Assembly (NCBI RefSeq): GCF_003865345.1
Contig: NZ_RMVE01000006.1
Coordinates: 124,001 to 188,000 of the forward strand
Length of the DNA: 64,000 nucleotides
Direction: 5' to 3'
Source: Nonlabens xiamenensis
Lineage (GTDB): Bacteria > Bacteroidota > Bacteroidia > Flavobacteriales > Flavobacteriaceae
The stretch's first letter is position 1, and the number at the start of each line of letters is the position of its first letter. The notes under the pieces are model-generated. The model saw nothing but the letters and a program-made list of their open reading frames with translations. It did no database searches and was not told the DNA's origin. Shown here piece after piece: positions 684 through 47,000 of this stretch. Both the position numbers and the translations under genes were made by a program.

Positions 684-750
684 TTATATCGATGCAGTAA
701 TTAATGGTAATCCTTACCTATGTAAAAGAGAAAGTCTATTGTCAGAGTGA
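601..750 (+). CDS. small protein, 49 aa, overlapping the previous gene out of frame
   Basis: This 49-codon frame starts at ATG 601 inside the preceding small gene and ends with TGA at 748-750. The product is basic at the N-terminus and has a normal-looking C-terminal half (DAVINGNPYLCKRESLLSE). The main support is that its TGA forms part of the left arm of the intergenic hairpin. The stops at 2921, 3742 and 4216 sit in the same place in three other hairpin modules. No SD is evident. It may be translated by reinitiation. Its function is unknown. Confidence 0.4.
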   Translation: MQSKKSTQSKIKRLTNYAQSIKHTVNDNYIDAVINGNPYLCKRESLLSE

Positions 751-804
751 CAGTTTAATTAGTGGCACATGGTAACACACTACCGTGTGCTTTTTTGTTA
801 TTAT
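747..804 (+). promoter_or_regulatory. hairpin-box-promoter module, copy 1
   Basis: The hairpin is GTGACA (747-752) with TGGCAC (762-767), carrying one mismatch. The box CACTACCG is at 778-785 and TATTAT at 799-804, leaving 13 bases between them. In this copy the box also forms a small stem, CACAC-TACC-GTGTG (776-789), followed by six T (791-796), which reads as an intrinsic terminator for upstream genes. The start at 826 is 21 bases after the -10. Confidence 0.65.
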
Positions 805-825
805 ATTAATAGTTAAACAAATCAC

Positions 826-1086
826 ATGCACAACTTCAAAGAATTTCTTGACTATTGTGAATCATTCTATTCACCTGAGCATCCTGACTGTTTATATCCT
901 ATCGATGGATTAACAAGACAAGAGTTAGCACTTGCAACTCTCAACGTTTTAGATTTATGTGAAGAAGGCACTCATGTAACATGGGGTGGTGGTGATAGTC
1001 TAGACCGTGAGAGAGTGAGAGATCAGGTTATCGAAGCAAGAGCAGTTGCTTACAACAATGCACTCAACATCATAGGAGTTAAGTAA
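826..1086 (+). CDS. hypothetical protein, 86 aa
   Basis: This 86-residue soluble protein is first in a probable operon (826-2921) behind module copy 1. It has an N-terminal helix-like segment (FKEFLDYCESFY), a HPDCLYP stretch, a TWGGGDS segment and a C-terminal helix (REVIEARA-like). It resembles the many short uncharacterised proteins of cyanomyovirus early regions, but I cannot name a family with a function. The start ATG follows a short leader without SD. The next gene begins one base after its stop. Confidence 0.7.
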   Translation: MHNFKEFLDYCESFYSPEHPDCLYPIDGLTRQELALATLNVLDLCEEGTHVTWGGGDSLDRERVRDQVIEARAVAYNNALNIIGVK

Positions 1087-1087
1087 C

Positions 1088-1252
1088 ATGAATGATAATC
1101 AAATCAACTGGTTAAGTGACATTTATGTGCAGTATTGCACAGATCACAATCTACCTATGTTAAGTGCTGATGAGCAAGATTTAGCATCAATGTCAGTTGC
1201 AAATCGTGACTGGATTACAACATTTATTTCAATCTGGGAGGGATTATCATGA
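1088..1252 (+). CDS. hypothetical protein, 54 aa
   Basis: An open frame runs from ATG 1088 to TGA 1250-1252 and encodes 54 residues. It is acidic and polar, with a Trp near each end (NWLSDIYVQYC, RDWITTFISIWEGLS). It starts one base after the previous stop and its own stop overlaps the next start (ATGA at 1249-1252). This fits a co-translated member of the 826-2921 operon. Family and function are unknown. Confidence 0.6.
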   Translation: MNDNQINWLSDIYVQYCTDHNLPMLSADEQDLASMSVANRDWITTFISIWEGLS

Positions 1253-1521
1253 CTGTAAAAACTGGTGATTTACAAGAGATCAAAGAGGAGTATGTAGAGT
1301 ATATTATCACAACTATGAGTAACGAAGAATTGCTCTCACTTGCTAGAAATCAAGTTAACAATGAAATTGAATCACTTGACAGTAAGCAATTTAAAAAATA
1401 CACATTTGATAATTGTGATGAATACATCTATGAAGATCTCAAGGCATATGTAGAGGAAGATGACCCCTCTAAAGCATATCAATTAATGCTAGAGATTATT
1501 GACGATAGGGAGTTAGCATAA
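1249..1521 (+). CDS. hypothetical acidic protein, 90 aa
   Basis: The 90-residue product is highly acidic and mostly helical in appearance. It contains EYVEYIITTMSNEELLSLARNQ near the N-terminus and a YEDLKAYVEEDDP segment. A good Shine-Dalgarno (GGAGG within GGGAGGG) lies before the ATG, unlike many neighbours. It overlaps the previous gene by ATGA and the next by TAATG. The general pattern resembles small acidic proteins common in cyanophage early regions. No catalytic motif is seen. Confidence 0.7.
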   Translation: MTVKTGDLQEIKEEYVEYIITTMSNEELLSLARNQVNNEIESLDSKQFKKYTFDNCDEYIYEDLKAYVEEDDPSKAYQLMLEIIDDRELA

Positions 1522-1733
1522 TGTATAACTCAGTCAAACACATATCTATAGGTGATATTGTATCATACAAGAATAAAACCTATACTGTATTAATCAACTA
1601 TATTAAGGATGATACAGACAGAAAAGGATTTACACCTACTGAAAACTGGACAGTTTTAATTGATGATAATGGAGATCGTAAAACTGTTTACAACTATCAA
1701 GAATTAAAACTTATTCAATCAATCGCATGTTAA
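1521..1733 (+). CDS. hypothetical protein, 70 aa
   Basis: This 70-residue protein has alternating hydrophobic and polar residues (SIGDIVSYKNKTYTVLINYI, NWTVLIDDNGDRKTVYNYQEL) that suggest a small all-beta, SH3-like barrel. That is a guess from pattern only. It starts in a TAATG overlap with the previous gene, and its 3' end overlaps the start of a 24-codon membrane peptide frame (1727). No specific function is evident. Confidence 0.65.
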   Translation: MYNSVKHISIGDIVSYKNKTYTVLINYIKDDTDRKGFTPTENWTVLIDDNGDRKTVYNYQELKLIQSIAC

Positions 1734-1801
1734 TTATTACTATAATAGTCATAATCTTTATACTCTTATTAATGCTCAACTTTTACAACCCGCACCACTA
1801 A
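1727..1801 (+). CDS. 24-residue single-span membrane peptide
   Basis: ATG at 1727 overlaps the end of the previous gene (ATGTTAA), and the stop TAA (1799-1801) overlaps the next start as TAATG. The product is 24 residues: an almost uninterrupted run of Ile, Leu, Val, Phe and Met (residues 2-19) followed by NFYNPHH. It is long enough for one transmembrane helix. The stop/start overlaps at both ends, identical in style to the other junctions of this operon, are the main evidence that it is real. Its function is unknown. Confidence 0.5.
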   Translation: MLIITIIVIIFILLLMLNFYNPHH

Positions 1802-2013
1802 TGAAAGAAATTACTTACTGTTTCAAAATTCAAACTGGCAAAGATGCAGAGATCAATCCGTATCACTTAGCAGAAGAGATACAGGCATATCTTGATAGTC
1901 ACGCATCTTATTATAATAGTGCTAAGGATGTATATGAAACACCTAGAGTAATAGGTTATAATGTTAAACTAGATGAATTCACACCTACAGGTTTTCCAAA
2001 GTTATCAGAATGA
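1801..2013 (+). CDS. hypothetical protein, 70 aa
   Basis: This 70-residue soluble protein carries a NPYHLAEEIQAYLDSHASYYNSAKDVYETPRV segment that looks helical, flanked by beta-like ends. It is joined to its neighbours by TAATG at the start and ATGA at the stop (2010-2013), immediately before the methyltransferase. No family is recognised. The position suggests only co-expression with the methyltransferase. Confidence 0.65.
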   Translation: MKEITYCFKIQTGKDAEINPYHLAEEIQAYLDSHASYYNSAKDVYETPRVIGYNVKLDEFTPTGFPKLSE

Positions 2014-2921
2014 GAAACAAAATATATTATGGTGATGTTAGAGAAACATTGCCACAATTATGGCAATATAAGGCACAAATGTGTGTGACTAGTCCACCCT
2101 ATTATGGACTAAGGGATTATGGTGGGGAAGATAAACAAGTAGGTCAGGAAGAAACACCAGAGGAATATATTAATAATATGGTGGAGATCTTTCGCTTAGT
2201 GAGAGATAACTTACAGGATGATGGCACATTATGGTTGAATATTGGGGATAGTTATTATAATTATAGACCAGGAAAAGGTCAGTCATATCCTAAACAGTCA
2301 GTAAGTAAGACTAAACAAGATTTGCCTGATAAATGTAATAAACGTGGTAATAAGTTAGAAGGATTAAAAGAAAAGGATTTAATCGGTATTCCGTGGATGT
2401 TAGCGTTTGCATTACGTCAGGATGGATGGTATCTAAGGCAAGATATTATTTGGCATAAACCTAACCCGATGCCCGAATCCGTGAGAGATAGATGCACTAA
2501 AGCACATGAGTATATTTTTCTATTCTCAAAGAGTAAGAAATACTTCTATGATAATGAAGCAATTAAAGAGGATGCTAAGGACTGGGGCACTAGAGATAGG
2601 ACTAAAGGAAAGTATCACAATAAAGGCACAGGATTACAACCCCATACTGGACTATCAAAGAGTTATCCAAAGAAAAATAAACGTAGTGTATGGTCAGTAA
2701 CTAATAAACCATATAAAGGAAGTCATTTTGCAGTATTTCCACCTGACTTAATACAACCGTGCATATTAGCAGGGAGTAGAGTAGGCGATCTAATACTTGA
2801 CCCATTTATGGGTAGTGGCACCACGGCAATGGTTAGTAAGCAATTAGGACGTGATTATATTGGATGTGAGTTACATTCTGAATATAAGGAGTTAATCGAC
2901 AAACGTATTAATAGTGTGTGA
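2010..2921 (+). CDS. DNA methyltransferase, beta-class (N4-cytosine or N6-adenine)
   Basis: This 303-residue protein transfers a methyl group from S-adenosylmethionine to an exocyclic amino group in DNA. The catalytic motif TSPPY is at residues 27-31, near the N-terminus. The AdoMet-binding motif DPFMGSGTT is at 264-272, near the C-terminus. The order catalytic motif, variable target-recognition region, FxGxG defines the beta class. A TSPPY motif is more often found in N4-cytosine enzymes, but adenine cannot be excluded. The middle (about 80-230) is Lys/Tyr-rich and is the likely target-recognition part. No restriction endonuclease gene is adjacent, so it looks like an orphan enzyme that protects phage DNA or marks it for regulation. 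It is last in the 826-2921 operon, and its TGA lies in the left arm of the following hairpin. Confidence 0.9.
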   Translation: MRNKIYYGDVRETLPQLWQYKAQMCVTSPPYYGLRDYGGEDKQVGQEETPEEYINNMVEIFRLVRDNLQDDGTLWLNIGDSYYNYRPGKGQSYPKQSVSKTKQDLPDKCNKRGNKLEGLKEKDLIGIPWMLAFALRQDGWYLRQDIIWHKPNPMPESVRDRCTKAHEYIFLFSKSKKYFYDNEAIKEDAKDWGTRDRTKGKYHNKGTGLQPHTGLSKSYPKKNKRSVWSVTNKPYKGSHFAVFPPDLIQPCILAGSRVGDLILDPFMGSGTTAMVSKQLGRDYIGCELHSEYKELIDKRINSV

Positions 2922-2975
2922 CAGTTGGATTAGTGTCACATACATGTGCACTACTGTATGAAAATGAGTTATATT
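2917..2975 (+). promoter_or_regulatory. hairpin-box-promoter module, copy 2
   Basis: A perfect 7-bp hairpin pairs TGTGACA (2917-2923) with TGTCACA (2934-2940). The box is CACTACTG (2949-2956) and the -10 is TATATT (2970-2975), 13 bases later. The methyltransferase stop (2919-2921) is within the left arm. Unlike the other copies, the next start codon is 81 bases away, and the leader contains an inverted repeat. Confidence 0.65.
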
Positions 2976-2981
2976 AAATAC

Positions 2982-3034
2982 ATCAAGGTTAATGCTTACA
3001 TTCACAAGTGCTAAGGGATACCTTTAACCTTGAT
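2982..3034 (+). promoter_or_regulatory. 11-bp inverted repeat in a 5' leader, enclosing an 11-codon frame
   Basis: ATCAAGGTTAA (2982-2992) and its perfect reverse complement TTAACCTTGAT (3024-3034) are separated by 31 bases. The -10 of module copy 2 ends at 2975, so transcription should start near 2982 and the stem would form at the very 5' end of the mRNA. A short frame, MLTFTSAKGYL, starts at ATG 2992 on the edge of the left arm and stops with TAA 3025-3027 inside the right arm. The start codon of the main gene is 3057. The layout suggests a structured leader or attenuator, or a protein-binding operator. Confidence 0.5.
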
Positions 3035-3056
3035 CCAAAATTTACAACTCAGGATC

Positions 3057-3464
3057 ATGGACATTTATCAGACAAGAGTATTACAGGCAATCAAGCAAAG
3101 AGAAAGCACATCATTAAAGAATAATGTAATGGTGCATAACTCATACCAAACTGGTAACCAATTCACTAGTAATATATTTGTTGATGATCAGCACATTGCA
3201 ACAGTTTACTATACTCACGATATAGACGATTTAAACTTTAATAGCAATGGTGGGACATTGACATATAATAATTTTGATCACAGCAATGGCGATTTTATTG
3301 ATGCTATCCGTAACGATTCATGGGATATAGATGAAATCGTATTCAATGAGAGAGCGATCGCTAGATGCCTAGGCACAAATGCAGTAAGATATAGAAACTT
3401 CATCACTAGACAATTTGGTGAGCAAACTAAGATAGTTAGAGAATTCTACGAGGTGAGAAAGTAA
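3057..3464 (+). CDS. hypothetical protein, 135 aa
   Basis: I start this gene at ATG 3057, preceded by AGGA, rather than at an upstream in-frame TTG at 3030, because the upstream part lies in the leader inverted repeat. The 135-residue product has a helical start (DIYQTRVLQAIKQRE), a beta-like centre with QHIATVYY, and a basic C-terminal helix (RYRNFITRQFGEQTKIVREFYEVRK). The HIATV segment also occurs in the protein at 5561-5881, which has a similar layout, so the two may be distant paralogues. No function is known. The stop overlaps the next start (TAATG). Confidence 0.7.
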   Translation: MDIYQTRVLQAIKQRESTSLKNNVMVHNSYQTGNQFTSNIFVDDQHIATVYYTHDIDDLNFNSNGGTLTYNNFDHSNGDFIDAIRNDSWDIDEIVFNERAIARCLGTNAVRYRNFITRQFGEQTKIVREFYEVRK

Positions 3465-3742
3465 TGCCTACTAGAATACCACTAAGGGAAAAACATAACT
3501 ATTCCCCAACACCATATGGATTTTTCAATAGCGAAGCATTCGGTATGTGTTTTTGGTTAGATAGCGATGGAGATTTTCGCTATGCACCACAATTTAAGAA
3601 TGGGCAACCAGATTTGAATGGAGTGGGATATGTTGGAGAGTGGGATGACTTCAGCGATGTTGATATGTTTGAATTGTTTAAAATACATGAGGGACTAATT
3701 GACTTTAAGCACAAAGTGCAAGAAGAATACCCAGATATGTGA
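3464..3742 (+). CDS. hypothetical protein, 92 aa
   Basis: This 92-residue acidic protein has a GMCFWLDSDGDFRYAPQF segment, followed by GVGYVGEWDDFSD, and a C-terminal helix. It resembles short uncharacterised cyanophage proteins with a WLDSDGD motif, but I know no function. It overlaps the previous gene by TAATG, and its TGA (3740-3742) lies inside the left arm of module copy 3. Confidence 0.7.
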   Translation: MPTRIPLREKHNYSPTPYGFFNSEAFGMCFWLDSDGDFRYAPQFKNGQPDLNGVGYVGEWDDFSDVDMFELFKIHEGLIDFKHKVQEEYPDM

Positions 3743-3796
3743 CAGTTGTATTAGTGTCACATATAAATGCACTACCGTGTTTTTATTGACTATAAT
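3735..3796 (+). promoter_or_regulatory. hairpin-box-promoter module, copy 3
   Basis: This copy has the longest stem: a perfect 10 bp between ATATGTGACA (3735-3744) and TGTCACATAT (3755-3764), with a 10-base loop. The box CACTACCG is at 3770-3777 and TATAAT at 3791-3796, with 13 bases between them. The box and following bases (CAC-TACC-GTG then TTTTT) could also work as a weak terminator. The start codon at 3822 is 25 bases after the -10. Confidence 0.7.
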
Positions 3797-3821
3797 ATGA
3801 ATATAATTAATCAATCAACTC

Positions 3822-3995
3822 ATGGATTACACAGCAAACGAGATCTCACTACTTGATCTAATCAAAGACATTCACAACACATTTTACTATGTTGGCGAAG
3901 AGAATGACAACATCGATGACATTGATCTAAAAACACTTGATGAGATAGTTGCTAGATTCAAGAGACAAGTATATTGCAATCAGTTACCAGAGTAA
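3822..3995 (+). CDS. hypothetical acidic protein, 57 aa
   Basis: An open frame runs from ATG 3822 to TAA 3993-3995 and encodes 57 residues. It looks helical, starting DYTANEISLLDLIKDIHNTFYYVG and ending DEIVARFKRQVYCNQLPE. The start is 25 bases after the TATAAT of module copy 3, in an A/T- and C-rich leader without SD, just like the other module-driven genes. No family is recognised. Confidence 0.6.
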   Translation: MDYTANEISLLDLIKDIHNTFYYVGEENDNIDDIDLKTLDEIVARFKRQVYCNQLPE

Positions 3996-4015
3996 ACCAT
4001 TATCATTTTATTATC

Positions 4016-4216
4016 ATGAATCAATTCTTATACACTATCGAAACCCCTAACGGATTAGATGGGGATGTTTACACTTCAGACTTAGAGAAAGCAGAAAATT
4101 CTTGTATCGAATGGGGTGAAGAGTATGGTTACTCATGTGTGAGAGAAAACTCTACTGGTGAAATCATATTTGACTATGGTGATATTTTTGACATGGTAGA
4201 GCAAGGCATTGTGTGA
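4016..4216 (+). CDS. hypothetical protein, 66 aa
   Basis: I use ATG 4016. An in-frame ATG at 3974 would overlap the previous gene and add 14 unlikely residues. The 66-residue product is acidic (NQFLYTIETPNGLDGDVYTSDLEKAENSCIEWGEE), probably a small alpha/beta fold. The stop TGA (4214-4216) is in the left arm of module copy 4. It is 20 bases after the previous gene and probably shares its transcript. Function is unknown. Confidence 0.65.
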   Translation: MNQFLYTIETPNGLDGDVYTSDLEKAENSCIEWGEEYGYSCVRENSTGEIIFDYGDIFDMVEQGIV

Positions 4217-4270
4217 CAGTTGGATTAGTGTCACACATGAATACACTACCGCACATTTACCCATTATAAT
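4210..4270 (+). promoter_or_regulatory. hairpin-box-promoter module, copy 4
   Basis: A perfect 9-bp stem pairs TGTGTGACA (4210-4218) with TGTCACACA (4229-4237). The box CACTACCG is at 4244-4251 and TATAAT at 4265-4270, 13 bases apart. The next start is 4294, 23 bases after the -10. The upstream gene's TGA is in the left arm. Confidence 0.7.
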
Positions 4271-4293
4271 AATAGTATAGACAACAAACAAAC

Positions 4294-4767
4294 ATGACTC
4301 AAACAAAAGTAATCGGCGAATCAGTCAAGCAAACAAACAAGACTTTCATCAAGCACTACACAGAAGGTTATTGTGATGCACTTACTGAGAATCTAAAACT
4401 TTATACTATTGACATGTATAACAGACCAACATTCGGCGGTGAGTTGAGATCTACACCATCACAGTATCAACTTGACAGACTTGCAGAAATCGAAAATGGC
4501 ACAGCAAAGTTAGACATTTTCAGAGCAATCGAAGGTAAGAAGTATTTCAAAGTTGTTTCATGTGAGTGGGATGAAAAGAGACAAGAGTATAGAGATCGCT
4601 CAGTCGTTACTTTCATCGATAAAAATACTGGTGACGTGTATAAAGCAGCATCATGGAAATCACCTGCTAAGCATGTAAGATACACTTTTCAGAATCCTGA
4701 GCACATCAAAATTCTACTTGACCCTAAGAAAGTTGACTGGGCAGGCGGTCACCTCTACATGAGGTAA
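4294..4767 (+). CDS. hypothetical protein, 157 aa
   Basis: This 157-residue protein sits alone behind module copy 4. Visible parts are a polar N-terminus, a central YQLDRLAEIENGTAKLDIFRAIEG segment and a conserved-looking C-terminal half (VVTFIDKNTGDVYKAASWKSPAKHVRYTF). I believe this C-terminal pattern is common in marine T4-like phages without an assigned function. It has no membrane segment or catalytic motif. The leader before ATG 4294 is A/C-rich and lacks SD. Confidence 0.75.
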   Translation: MTQTKVIGESVKQTNKTFIKHYTEGYCDALTENLKLYTIDMYNRPTFGGELRSTPSQYQLDRLAEIENGTAKLDIFRAIEGKKYFKVVSCEWDEKRQEYRDRSVVTFIDKNTGDVYKAASWKSPAKHVRYTFQNPEHIKILLDPKKVDWAGGHLYMR

Positions 4768-4779
4768 GTCAACCGATCT

Positions 4780-4838
4780 TGTGCCACTTTCATTAGTGGC
4801 ACATAATCCTACACTACCACACTTTAATCCTTTATAAT
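4780..4838 (+). promoter_or_regulatory. hairpin-box-promoter module, copy 5 (compensatory stem)
   Basis: A perfect 9-bp stem pairs TGTGCCACT (4780-4788) with AGTGGCACA (4795-4803). Compared with copies 2-4, the A-T pair of GTGACA/TGTCAC is replaced by C-G in both arms, a compensatory change. The box is CACTACCA (4812-4819) and TATAAT is 4833-4838, again 13 bases apart. The start codon at 4860 is 21 bases after the -10. The upstream stop is 13 bases before the hairpin. Confidence 0.7.
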
Positions 4839-4859
4839 ATTACTAACGACACAAATCAC

Positions 4860-5057
4860 ATGGCACTTTCAAGAAACATGACTAAAAAGCAAGTTGTTGC
4901 TATCTTCCGTGAAGCATGGAGACAAGAGACACTAGGCACACAATGGTGGGGTGATGCTATCGCTAAACGTGAAGCATTTAATGATTACGTCGATTCACTT
5001 AATAAAGAGGGACGTGTAACTGACTGGCAGGCATATAACTGGTCAAACCCATTCTAA
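4860..5057 (+). CDS. hypothetical protein, 65 aa
   Basis: This basic 65-residue protein reads SRNMTKKQVVAIFREAWRQE at the N-terminus and AKREAFNDYVDSLNKEGRVTDWQAYNWSNPF at the C-terminus. The Trp-rich end and NYVDSL/AYNW pattern look like a small protein family that recurs in cyanomyoviruses. Its function is unknown. The gene is first in a module-5-driven unit with 5073 and 5222. Its stop TAA overlaps the strong SD (AAGGAGG, 5056-5062) of the next gene. Confidence 0.75.
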   Translation: MALSRNMTKKQVVAIFREAWRQETLGTQWWGDAIAKREAFNDYVDSLNKEGRVTDWQAYNWSNPF

Positions 5058-5072
5058 GGAGGATTTTAAACA

Positions 5073-5225
5073 ATGTCATTTGCAGCAAACACAGATCTAA
5101 TCGAAGCACTCTTTGAGGAAGCAATCGCAGAGCAAGAGAGAGCACATCCAAATCTATCAATCAGAGAGATAGAATCAAGAGCGGAATCAATCGCTAAATC
5201 ACGTTTTTGGGACATGGCACAATGA
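5073..5225 (+). CDS. hypothetical helical protein, 50 aa
   Basis: ATG 5073 follows one of the best Shine-Dalgarno sequences in the early region (AAGGAGG at 5056-5062, 10 bases upstream). The 50-residue product looks like two acidic helices (DLIEALFEEAIAEQERAH and IREIESRAESIAKSRFWDMAQ). The stop overlaps the next start (ATGA, 5222-5225). No family is recognised. Confidence 0.65.
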   Translation: MSFAANTDLIEALFEEAIAEQERAHPNLSIREIESRAESIAKSRFWDMAQ

Positions 5226-5359
5226 GCACTATTAAATTGTCTTTTGATGAGCAATATGAAATCATCAAATTATATGATATCCTTAGGGATATGGATTTTG
5301 AGTTAACTGACTTGCAAAGATCAGTATTTGACAAGATACAGGAATCCAAGTATAATTAA
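5222..5359 (+). CDS. hypothetical protein, 45 aa
   Basis: This 45-residue acidic, helical-looking protein (DEQYEIIKLYDILRDMDFELTDLQRSVFDKIQ) starts at ATG 5222 in an ATGA overlap and ends with TAA 5357-5359. Its last ten codons contain a perfect consensus promoter (5328-5356) for the next gene. Its role is unknown. Confidence 0.6.
   Translation: MSTIKLSFDEQYEIIKLYDILRDMDFELTDLQRSVFDKIQESKYN
5328..5356 (+). promoter_or_regulatory. perfect consensus sigma70 promoter
   Basis: TTGACA (5328-5333), a 17-base spacer and TATAAT (5351-5356) match the bacterial sigma70 consensus at every position. The promoter is inside the 3' end of the 5222-5359 gene. The expected transcription start, about 7 bases past the -10, falls at or next to ATG 5364, so the following gene would have a leaderless mRNA. 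It is the strongest promoter by sequence in the window. Confidence 0.75.
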
Positions 5360-5363
5360 TAAC

Positions 5364-5522
5364 ATGGAAGACATTTTCACAGACATTTTTGAATCCCTTG
5401 ATCAGTTGACTGTAGTCACCTATCCCGACGGATTTAAACCCTACCAAATTCCGCAACCATCCGCACCTACCGTTGTGCCATTTGCGGAAGTGGCACACAT
5501 CCGCACACTACCGTCGGATTAA
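5364..5522 (+). CDS. hypothetical protein, 52 aa, possibly leaderless
   Basis: The frame from ATG 5364 to TAA 5520-5522 encodes 52 residues, acidic at the N-terminus (EDIFTDIFESLDQL) and Pro/Val-rich later. Its last 16 or so codons run through the hairpin and CACTACCG box of module copy 6, so the DNA is doing two jobs there. ATG 5364 is only 8 bases after a perfect -10 hexamer. The more GC-rich 3' part differs from its neighbours. Its function is unknown, and it may be a short early protein or a largely regulatory transcript. Confidence 0.5.
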   Translation: MEDIFTDIFESLDQLTVVTYPDGFKPYQIPQPSAPTVVPFAEVAHIRTLPSD

Positions 5523-5532
5523 CCACTATAAT
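5474..5532 (+). promoter_or_regulatory. hairpin-box-promoter module, copy 6 (inside a coding frame)
   Basis: The stem is TGTGCCA (5474-5480) with TGGCACA (5491-5497), extended inward by weaker pairs. As in copy 5, both arms carry the compensatory C-G pair. The box CACTACCG is at 5506-5513 and TATAAT at 5527-5532, exactly 13 bases apart. It overlaps the coding frame that ends at 5522. The start codon at 5561 is 28 bases after the -10. Confidence 0.65.
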
Positions 5533-5560: not shown

Positions 5561-5881
5561 ATGCGTAAGATCGAAAGACAAATGAATCAAGCGATCAGAA
5601 ACGGAGTTAACTTCTCTTCTTCTAATACAATGGTTAGACAGGGATGGGAAGGCGAAAGTGATGTTTATCTACATGGCAATCACATCGCTACAGTCAAATC
5701 TAACTCAATCATCATCAAAGATGGCGGTTGGCAGTCAAACACCACTAAGTCACGTTTAAATGCATTACTTGATGAATTCTCTTATGGCACTAGAGTTTTT
5801 CAAAAGCAATTTGAGTGGTTTGTTGGTTATAAGAATGTCACAGAGGACTTTGTAAGCGGTATGGAGTTAGCAATAGACTAA
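5561..5881 (+). CDS. hypothetical protein, 106 aa
   Basis: This 106-residue basic protein starts RKIERQMNQAIRNGVNF, has a central VYLHGNHIATVKSN strand pair, and then a GGWQSNTTKSRLNALLDEF motif. I recognise this pattern as a small protein family recurrent in cyanomyoviruses, with no known function. The HIATV element is shared with the protein at 3057-3464. GGAG lies 7 bases before the ATG. It is followed by an intrinsic terminator. Confidence 0.75.
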   Translation: MRKIERQMNQAIRNGVNFSSSNTMVRQGWEGESDVYLHGNHIATVKSNSIIIKDGGWQSNTTKSRLNALLDEFSYGTRVFQKQFEWFVGYKNVTEDFVSGMELAID

Positions 5882-44084: not shown

Positions 44085-47000
44085 ATGCCACAGAATACCA
44101 ACCTAAACATTAGTCCATATTTCGACGACTTCGATAAAGATAAGAATTTTTATCGAGTGCTCTATAGACCTGGATTCCCAATACAGGCAAGAGAGCTAAC
44201 GACGATGCAATCGATCTTGCAAAATCAGATCGAGAATATGGGTCAGCACTTCTTCAAAGAAGGTGCAATGGTCATACCTGGTCAAGTAGGTTATGATCTG
44301 AATGTGCAAGCTATTGTACTTCAACAAGCATTTTTGGGAGTTGACGTTGAGACGTATCGTGCTCAACTTAGTGACAAGATTATCTCTGGACTTACATCTG
44401 GTATTCGTGCAAAAGTCCTATACTCTATTCCTGCCACTGAGTCAACTAAAGGATATATCACTCTCTATGTAAAGTATATTGACTCTGGTGATACTATCTC
44501 AGAGACTAATGTTCGTGGTTTCCAAGCAAACGAGCAGTTGATCTGTGAGTCTGAATTGACTTTTGGCACAACTTTGATTGAGATTGGATCTCCCTTTGCT
44601 CAGTTGCTTCCTGTTGATGCAACCGCAGTTGCTGCTGTAGCATATATCAATGAAGGTATCTACTTTATTCGTGGACATTTTGTAAACGTCCCTAGCAGTT
44701 ATATTATCCTTGATCAATATACGAATAACCCATCGTATAGAATTGGTCTAGAAGTCGCAGAATCTATCGTTACCCCAGAAGATGATACATCTCTAAACGA
44801 TAACGCTGCAGGCACATCAAACTATTCAGCACCAGGTGGTCATAGATTTAAGATCTCTACTACACTGGTCAAGAAACCAATCGCCGATGAAACTGATAAA
44901 AACTTCATCGAATTAATTAGAATCCGTGATTCTAAGATTGAGCAACTTGTCAATACATCTGCATACTCACAACTTGAGAAATCACTTGCTCGTAGGACTT
45001 TTGAAGAGTCTGGTGATTATGTAATCGATACATTCGATGTTAAGTTGAGAGAGCATCGTAATGATGGATTTAACAATGGTGTATATTCAGCAGGTCAATC
45101 CTCTAGAGCAGGACAACCTGCATCAGAAGAATATGCAGCAATCGAGGTATCACCAGGTAGAGCATATATTAAAGGTTATAGGACAGAGTTTTTAACTCCA
45201 CAATATGTTGACCTTAAGAAACCAAGAGACTTTGTTGGTATTCAGAATACTATCATTCCTCTAGAGTGGGGTCAATATCTAAAAGTATTTGGTGTATATG
45301 GGTGGCCTAACTTCACTGGTGAAGGTGTTAGTGATGCTTATCAAATTCTTGATCTGCAAGATGGATGGACAACCTCTACTAACAATAGTGTAACTGGTCA
45401 AAAAATCGGACGTGCTCGTTGTGTGCAACTACAGAAATCAGGAGCAGGTCTATTTGACATGTATCTGATGGACATCCAGTTATATACTGCTGTCAATTTT
45501 GTTGCAGGTAATACAACTGTTGCTGTTGGTGACAAACTTGTTGGACGTATCTCAGGTGCTACAGGATTTGTAACTGATGACTTCTCAGGACAGAGAGTGT
45601 CTATGGAGCAGGTATCAGGTACTTTCATTGACGGTGAAGTAATCACTAGAGATGGCAGAGTTGTTGGCACACTAGATGCTGTGCACACATATAAGATTAC
45701 TGACGTAAGATCTGTTATTGGACGCAACGCCCAATCTGTTGTTAGTTTTGCTGCGAAACTGTTGCTTAATGATAGAGCAGTTATTAGAGGATCTTCTATT
45801 ACAATCGATCAGGCAGGATCTCCTCCTAAAATTACAGGTACTAACGGATCTAAGTTTGAGCAAGATCTAAGACCTGGCGATGTTATTTCTCCTGACGGTC
45901 TATCATCTCCACAAGGTGAGAAGACTCTTGTTATCACAAAAGCAGTTAAGAATGCTATCAACCTAACAGCTGGAAACAATACAGGTGTTACACCATACGT
46001 TTTTGACTACCAAGCACAGACTGCTACTATTGATACTAGTCTAACTAAAGGATCTATTACAGACGGCACATATACTACAGTTGTTAGATATAGACCATAT
46101 CTATATGGTCAGAATCAACCTTCTGGTCAGTTGTCTCAAGACTTACCTAAGAGGACAATCAAGTCTATTACTGACGAATCATTCTTTGTCTTTAGGACAT
46201 TCGATAACAAAACTGTTGTATCAGGTGGTTTAACTGTTGCACTTCCAGAATCTGAGCAGTTTGCTGCACTGGATGATGACAACTATATTCTTACAATTCT
46301 TGCAGAATCTGGATCAGCATATTCAGTTGGTGACAACCTTGACATCGAGGCACTATCTGACGCACAGACATTGACAGTTACCTTTGGTGCTGACAGACAG
46401 TCCATTACTATTGACGGTCTTACAGGTGTTACCACAGTTAAACTAACTGCATTGGTATCTAAGAATATCGTTTCTAGAAAAATTAAAACTGCATCTAAGA
46501 TGCGTGCTATGAAAGTCACTAGGACTTCTAAGCAACAAGATATTCAAAGATTCGGACTAAACTACGGAGGATTGTATGGCACAAGAATCGAAGACCCCGA
46601 GATCTCATTCGGTCTCAACGATGTATATAAACTCCACGCAGTCTATGAATCTGAAGATGACAACGCTCCCAAAATCCCTTACGTTGTCCTCTCAGAAGCA
46701 ACCTTCTTTGCTCCTGGCACAGTTATCACTGGCGTTACATCAGGTGCAAGAGCAGTAGTTGTATCATTTATTAACGCAACTCTAAGACTTTATAACGTTG
46801 ACCTAAACGGCACACAGTTTAATCCTGGCGAAACAATCAACGGTGAGGACAGTGATGGTAACGTATTGACTGCAACTATTGATGATGCTGACGGATCTGT
46901 TGAAAAAGGATCTAAGGTTATCACAAATCAGTATGAGTTAAATCAGTCACAAAATGCATTCTTCTATGACGTATCTCGTCTAATTAGAAAACCTGGCACT

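Follow-up and report, generated by a model that had tools for sequence, protein, structure and literature searches.

The modules discussed here, each joining a palindrome, a short box and a -10 element, lie near the start of a 64,000-nucleotide stretch of DNA filed under Nonlabens xiamenensis (the window, that is, the whole stretch analysed; positions 124001-188000 of contig C10, 188,235 bases), and C10 is a cyanophage contig near P-TIM40 of the Kyanoviridae. Their closest described counterparts are the yfr2 promoters of cyanobacteria. According to passages of PMC6778093, the GntR regulator PMM1637 binds yfr2 promoters and mediates the induction of Yfr2, and two Yfr2 homologues of MED4 are under its control. 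Passages of PMC6243067 credit PlmA with the same regulation, describe its interaction with PII-PipX, and say that the PlmA regulon awaits definition.

Comparisons can also be drawn with phage promoters. The MotA-dependent middle promoters of T4 carry a conserved box near -30, located 5' of a sigma-70-type -10. The PeSL cassettes repeat a promoter and a hairpin-like element between the small genes of variable regions; PeSLs are cited for T4-like phages in a passage of PMC4503421. A passage of PMC2984593 describes the control of early and middle transcription in T4-like cyanophages as still unclear, and reports cyanomyoviruses without motA and asi. In the cases described in parts of PMC10976474 and PMC3037559, cyanophages use host PhoB or NtcA sites, and their genes are read, or are predicted to be read, by a nutrient-sensing host regulator.

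Judged by their sequence, the modules belong to a promoter class of the Kyanoviridae with a yfr2-type operator. We consider it probable that these phage promoters are built on the GntR operator of host yfr2 genes, and that the host protein PMM1637/PlmA would read the copies and activate from them; both the identity of the reader and the direction of the effect are what we infer from the comparisons below. The controls in host genomes lower our confidence in this reading slightly.

The modules in the window and in other cyanophages

All six modules lie on the forward strand and measure 58 bp with no insertions or deletions, consisting of a 22-bp palindrome, a spacer of 30 bp (6/6) and a -10 hexamer. 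Module 1 (747-804) has its palindrome at 747-768, the box CACTACCG at 778-785 and the -10 TATTAT at 799-804, and module 2 (2918-2975) has its palindrome at 2918-2939, the box CACTACTG at 2949-2956 and the -10 TATATT at 2970-2975. The other four end in TATAAT: module 3 (3739-3796; palindrome 3739-3760, box 3770-3777, -10 3791-3796), module 4 (4213-4270; palindrome 4213-4234, box 4244-4251, -10 4265-4270), module 5 (4781-4838; palindrome 4781-4802, box CACTACCA 4812-4819, -10 4833-4838) and module 6 (5475-5532; palindrome 5475-5496, box 5506-5513, -10 5527-5532). The box lies 13 bp from the -10 in 6/6 modules. Within the spacer, columns S10-S15 (CACTAC) are invariant in all six and S16-S17 agree in 5/6, while the flanking bases differ among modules; columns at 5/6 identity or better form an unbroken run of up to 8, a length equalled by 0 of 20,000 shuffles.

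For scoring, we used a model of palindrome plus -10 whose letters were trained on relatives outside the P-TIM40 group and whose spacing weights came from 419 unique modules (186 loci and 338 distinct palindromes, among the matches listed; related contigs are not independent). The six modules score 36.7-41.2 bits and are the top six of the 188-kb contig on both strands, whereas no match on the reversed contig scores above 8.5. The box pattern alone is less specific, with 14 window matches at up to three mismatches versus 6.07 expected. The original prediction of six modules with their parts in fixed order and an exact distance from box to -10 is borne out, though the box and TATAAT, which it took as uniform, each keep their letters in only 4/6 copies (CACTACCG and TATAAT, respectively).

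Nor are the six the only copies. A degenerate module that the prediction had missed occupies 149-205 of the forward strand, with the palindrome GTGACATTTAAACTATTGTCAT at 149-170, a spacer of 29 and TATAAT at 200-205, without the CACTACCG box and at 21.2 bits; together with positions 44464, 60667 and 123336 of C10 it makes up a weaker group (19.0-23.1 bits) that still exceeds the reversed contig. A seventh exact CACTACCG-N13-TATAAT is found just 5' of the window (C10:120931-120987, box at 120961), with a second CACTAC 11 bp before its box. The palindrome-like sequence before this box scores 5.5 bits, which is under the null; the box can thus be present without the palindrome, and the two are separable.

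Relatives share the design, which supports the proposal of a promoter class of its own whose activator-like site has a set position. In 15 of 18 whole records we found the palindrome, comprising 14/14 Kyanoviridae (1-28 copies each) and P-HM2, against 0/18 for a reversed-pattern control; no copy was found in the whole records of T4, RB49 and S-TIM5. A -10 lies about 30 bp 3' of the palindrome in 13 of the 14 Kyanoviridae records, and these searches also return palindromes with no -10. The six Kyanoviridae examined by region all have a -10-like hexamer 29-31 bp past a palindrome; in the regions of P-RSM4, ACG-2014f, S-SSM4, S-SSM5 and P-RSM1 this is the distance for most palindromes, and the box is different. 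For 82 palindromes on both strands of the window and of regions from five cultured phages, -10-like hexamers peak at 30 bp (26) and 31 bp (14); a secondary peak at 41 bp was not used, because AT-rich sequence past the -10 can imitate it.

The full pattern with exactly 30 bp is present in 7/12 whole records (S-PM2, Syn9, P-SSM2, P-SSM4, S-SM1, S-CRM01 and Syn19) and was not found in the remaining ones, S-RSM4, P-HM2, S-TIM5, T4 and RB49. With two mismatches allowed, S-RSM4 (3+3 versus 1+1 in the control) and P-HM2 (5+4 versus 0+3) barely exceed the control. Since the IMG/VR loci were retrieved by patterns that contain the module, spacing counts from them are biased.

Conservation of box and spacing in relatives had been named beforehand as a test, and only the spacing is kept beyond the P-TIM40 lineage. 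The palindrome together with the CACTACCG box is common to this phage and five P-TIM40-like IMG/VR stretches; in the other Kyanoviridae we looked at, the position of the box holds CCCCATT-like, GCAAACCCC-like or TTGAAA-like sequence, with palindrome and distance unchanged. The CACTACCG box as a family-wide activator site is rejected on this comparison with other genera, and what the other Kyanoviridae keep is the palindrome.

These results bear on a second explanation, in which a MotA-like activator, phage-encoded or phage-recruited, reads CACTACCG at about -30 and the palindrome is secondary. T4 middle promoters have their box in the same place, near -30 and ahead of a sigma-70-type -10. CACTAC holds in 6/6 modules of this genome while its flanks vary, and the seventh exact box with TATAAT has no significant palindrome. 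Most modules also have a weak -35, since a match of at least 4/6 to TTGACA at 16-18 bp is reached by 30% of the 419 modules (11% of shuffles). At 28 other loci (102 modules), identity within genomes exceeds that between genomes by 0.11-0.33 over S8-S16, and not from S17 on. The excess is, however, equally large at S24 (0.27), D12 (0.33) and H13 (0.23); copies of the same genome thus have more in common than the box. Unlike the T4 box, that of the modules has different letters, is lineage-specific and varies between genera, and the report that motA and asi are absent from cyanomyoviruses (in the passage of PMC2984593 given above) also speaks against such a factor. We regard a MotA-like reader as distinctly unlikely; a GntR protein of the host is the best candidate for the reader, instead of the phage-encoded factor first suggested.

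The palindrome as DNA site or RNA stem

The palindrome was initially described as a hairpin whose stems change in a compensatory way. This holds in 5/6 modules; module 1 has an A.G mismatch (GTGACA/TGGCAC), and compensation is not kept across relatives. One should keep in mind that the search pattern fixes pairs 1-3 and 5-6 with their partners, so that pairing is testable only through the free pairs and the deviating copies. Among the 338 distinct palindromes, pair 4-19 is formed in 160, versus 167.8 expected if the positions were independent (among the 419 modules, 96% have A or C at position 4 and 97% have G or T at position 19). Pair 7-16 is formed in 81 versus 145.1 expected, with G/G and C/C favoured.

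Positions 7 and 16 shun pairing, holding G/G or C/C in 212/338 palindromes, and one half-site therefore tends to CAG and the other to CAC. This avoidance might hinder hairpins from forming, or it might point to asymmetric binding.

Copies with TATAAT that deviate from the fixed letters number 69 with one deviation and 76 with two, and among the 76, the changes fall at adjacent positions within one arm in 69 and at pairing partners in 1. A selected stem would show the opposite pattern of double changes, which disfavours the RNA-stem reading. In addition, no T-run follows the palindrome (S1-8 have a T fraction of 0.19), and just 6/419 modules have a palindrome that would itself pass for a terminator. 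An RNA stem-loop as the shared element was rejected on the missing covariation and the one-arm double changes. The "hairpin" palindrome, on this sequence evidence, more likely behaves as a site in DNA than in RNA.

The principal rival on this point takes the modules for PeSLs, in which an RNA stem-loop terminator is joined to an early promoter, with a main role in ending upstream transcripts and providing recombination points in the variable region. The composite layout is similar, with predicted promoters bearing sigma-70-type -10-like elements at a fixed distance between small open reading frames (ORFs). The window palindromes, moreover, can fold: those of modules 2-6 have folding energies of -10.6 to -15.3 kcal/mol, module 5 lying far beyond its shuffles (z -6.0; -6.01 at two decimals) and the others at z -0.45 to -2.70, a result that favours a hairpin if this phage is taken alone. 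The copy of the palindrome from the relative ACG-2014f (locus L024), in contrast, folds no better than shuffles (z 0.02).

A separate terminator-like hairpin with a T-run between palindrome and -10 is found in 34/419 modules (mean 8.0 and maximum 13 in 50 shuffled-spacer sets). Module 1 has one on the forward strand (stem 764-774/781-791, T-run 791-796), and its identical copy in P-TIM40 also scored as terminator-like and is among the 34. In this module the stem is of 11 bp and the box is its 3' arm; the box as a terminator part was nonetheless rejected, as it fails to explain the conservation in modules that have no such pairing. The built-in upstream RNA end that had been proposed does not apply to the palindrome, but a minority of modules may have one in the spacer, and because of this embedded hairpin the cassettes resemble PeSLs.

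What sets the modules apart from PeSLs is that the shared palindrome shows neither RNA-stem behaviour nor a T-run, that its geometry to the -10 is fixed where a terminator needs no strict distance, that the palindrome is absent from T4 and RB49, and that yfr2 promoters are headed by the same element. We therefore hold it unlikely that ending transcripts and recombination are the main role of the modules.

Likeness to yfr2 promoters and the candidate host reader

In cyanobacteria the full module gave only scattered stretches; a search with the palindrome alone led to yfr2. The palindrome occurs in 98/386 genomes of the cyanobacterial phylum. From these we hand-picked 20 consensus-like chromosomal copies among the matches listed; nine lie directly 5' of a Cyano-1 RNA (RF01701), which we take to be Yfr2. 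In a free search over 20-41 bp, the best -10 of these nine lies at 31 bp in seven and at 30 bp in two. The nine host promoters keep the palindrome-to-(-10) distance of the phage.

Five loci from large cyanobacterial genomes (L262, L263, L264, L278 and L280) have nearly the same palindrome (GTGTCAGTTAAGAAAGTGTCAC and close variants) at the head of a conserved stretch that contains GCAAGGAGTGATACCACTTC. This stretch has no Rfam match and is possibly a diverged Yfr2-like small RNA.

In the converse test, a phage-trained matrix was run over the 120 bp 5' of Cyano-1 loci, of which 73 of 76 were used (L295, L348 and L378, being truncated, were dropped); 11 of the 40 genomes in one Cyano-1 set had been added owing to a palindrome somewhere in them. 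The best match is centred at -57 to -48 in 37/73 Yfr2 promoters versus 9.2% of shuffles. Matches inside and outside this interval number 10 and 0 at a score of at least 10, 11 and 1 at 8, and 15 and 2 at 5, scores that shuffles never reached. Leaving out the genome set partly chosen by palindrome gives 28/57, and counting by distinct best-match sequence gives 30/64. For the 21 distinct operators in the interval, the best -10 lies at 30-32 bp in 14.

In short, a share of the yfr2 promoters (PMM1637/PlmA, CGRE1 motif) has the half-site of the phage modules with the same N6 spacing; their operators are centred roughly between -54 and -48 relative to the RNA start, and the -10 lies at 30-31 bp in 9/9 perfect-palindrome cases. 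The phage differs in having several copies per genome, placed before protein genes, and in an extra lineage-specific box at -35. Its operators are also nearer to a perfect palindrome than those of small cyanobacterial genomes; in genomes of 1.6 Mb the Yfr2 site consists of one good half-site (GTGACAGTTAAGATAGAGG) with no perfect palindrome.

Several observations weigh against a yfr2-type operator read by the host. The full module with exact TATAAT in genome_contigs gave 26 scattered stretches, near the rough chance expectation of about 30, and the reversed control of the palindrome matched about 30 of the 386 genomes (hand count), which means that chance accounts for some of the 98. Eleven of the 20 chosen copies do not adjoin an Rfam-recognised Yfr2, 36/73 Yfr2 promoters have their best match elsewhere than -57 to -48, and two matches scoring at least 5 fall outside that interval against the 15 inside. 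In 7/21 distinct operators inside the interval the best -10 lies elsewhere, at 28-37 bp, and small genomes have degenerate Yfr2 operators that mostly keep one good half-site. In most of 40 smaller genomes the palindrome at up to one mismatch is about as frequent as the reversed control, so that no wide host regulon is visible; an excess is found mainly in three (18, 21 and 19 versus 4, 4 and 3), and 8 of the 40 have a Cyano-1 match. The operator, furthermore, leaves the box unexplained.

As to the reader, the GntR domain PF00392 was found in 5/5 cyanobacterial genomes and 0/13 phage records. Four GntR proteins extracted from cyanobacteria align with each other and carry a helix-turn-helix. A title-level literature search returned nothing linking PMM1637/PlmA or Yfr2 to cyanophage promoters; PMC7760959 contains both PlmA and cyanophage.

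If the yfr2-type reading is right, each module would be a promoter for host RNA polymerase whose upstream element, GTGMCAST-N6-ASTGKCAC, is an operator in double-stranded DNA with its centre about 53 bp 5' of the expected start. The phage would have borrowed the PMM1637/PlmA operator and retained the host geometry. The host protein would bind it, probably as a dimer, and the bound protein would stimulate transcription from the TATAAT-type -10, for which the -35 is mostly weak, with the lineage-specific box (CACTACCG here) presumably replacing or tuning the -35 contact. A minority of modules also fit a terminator-like hairpin into the space between the operator and the -10.

Among GntR proteins, palindromic operators often act as repressor sites. 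Hence one may ask whether the same host protein, or another host factor, represses the phage genes from the palindrome or turns them off at a later stage. Activation accords better with the strict spacing to the -10 and with the weak -35 sites, and Yfr2 is described as induced through PMM1637 in a passage of PMC6778093; we find repression quite improbable. The modules differ likewise from the PhoB and NtcA cases, in that operator and regulator family are different and the modules form a repeated promoter class with fixed spacing.

Gene context and implications

A 6.3-kb piece of the window has 98.2% identity to Cyanophage P-TIM40 (KP211958, Kyanoviridae, Libanvirus), in which the counterpart of the module region is a row of small ORFs preceding gp25/gp6. 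The assembly comprises 3.68 Mb in 13 contigs and includes the cyanophage contig at about the full length of P-TIM40, perhaps from a co-culture. The host of P-TIM40 is NATL2A. Further along the window, 15533-37588 is one ORF of 7351 codons, whose P-TIM40 counterpart is annotated as a putative structural protein. The contigs NHFO01000061.1 and NHFO01000063.1 (loci L233, L238 and L248), filed under the Flavobacteriales metagenome-assembled genome TMED113, carry many modules and resemble cyanophage contamination. Some of the 26 full-module stretches in genome_contigs come from this genome, which, with 13 modules at up to one mismatch versus 0 in the control, looks like cyanophage DNA.

The operator also lies where upstream genes end, its TGA often being their stop codon. 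This is seen in module 2 (2919-2921, DNA methylase ORF), module 3 (3740-3742) and module 4 (4214-4216). Among GTGACA-type modules, at least 50 open codons end exactly at the operator TGA in 70/191, whereas the other two frames average 30.5.

Ten ORFs near the modules were scanned for function. An N6/N4 DNA methylase (2010-2921) and several small ORFs follow module 1, a DUF7717 protein is encoded after module 4, and module 6 precedes an ORF of the Kyano_Gp96 family (5561-5881) and a 2OG-Fe(II) oxygenase; the remaining scanned ORFs gave no function above the cut-off. The degenerate module at 149-205 precedes an ORF at 229-549.

Now that a candidate reader can be named for this promoter class, the control of early and middle transcription in T4-like cyanophages becomes testable, and, if the reading is true, the modules would be a large set of candidate PlmA targets. 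More tentatively, and with rather less confidence than in the promoter class itself, we suggest a family-wide Kyanoviridae regulon under host PlmA/PMM1637, coupled to the PII-PipX-PlmA sensor of nitrogen and energy, whose operator copies may also titrate the protein from yfr2 and lower Yfr2. With as many as 28 palindromes in one genome, multiplied further by replication, the phages would then draw PlmA/PMM1637 off yfr2, and the genes of ocean viruses would be linked to the nitrogen and energy circuit of their hosts.

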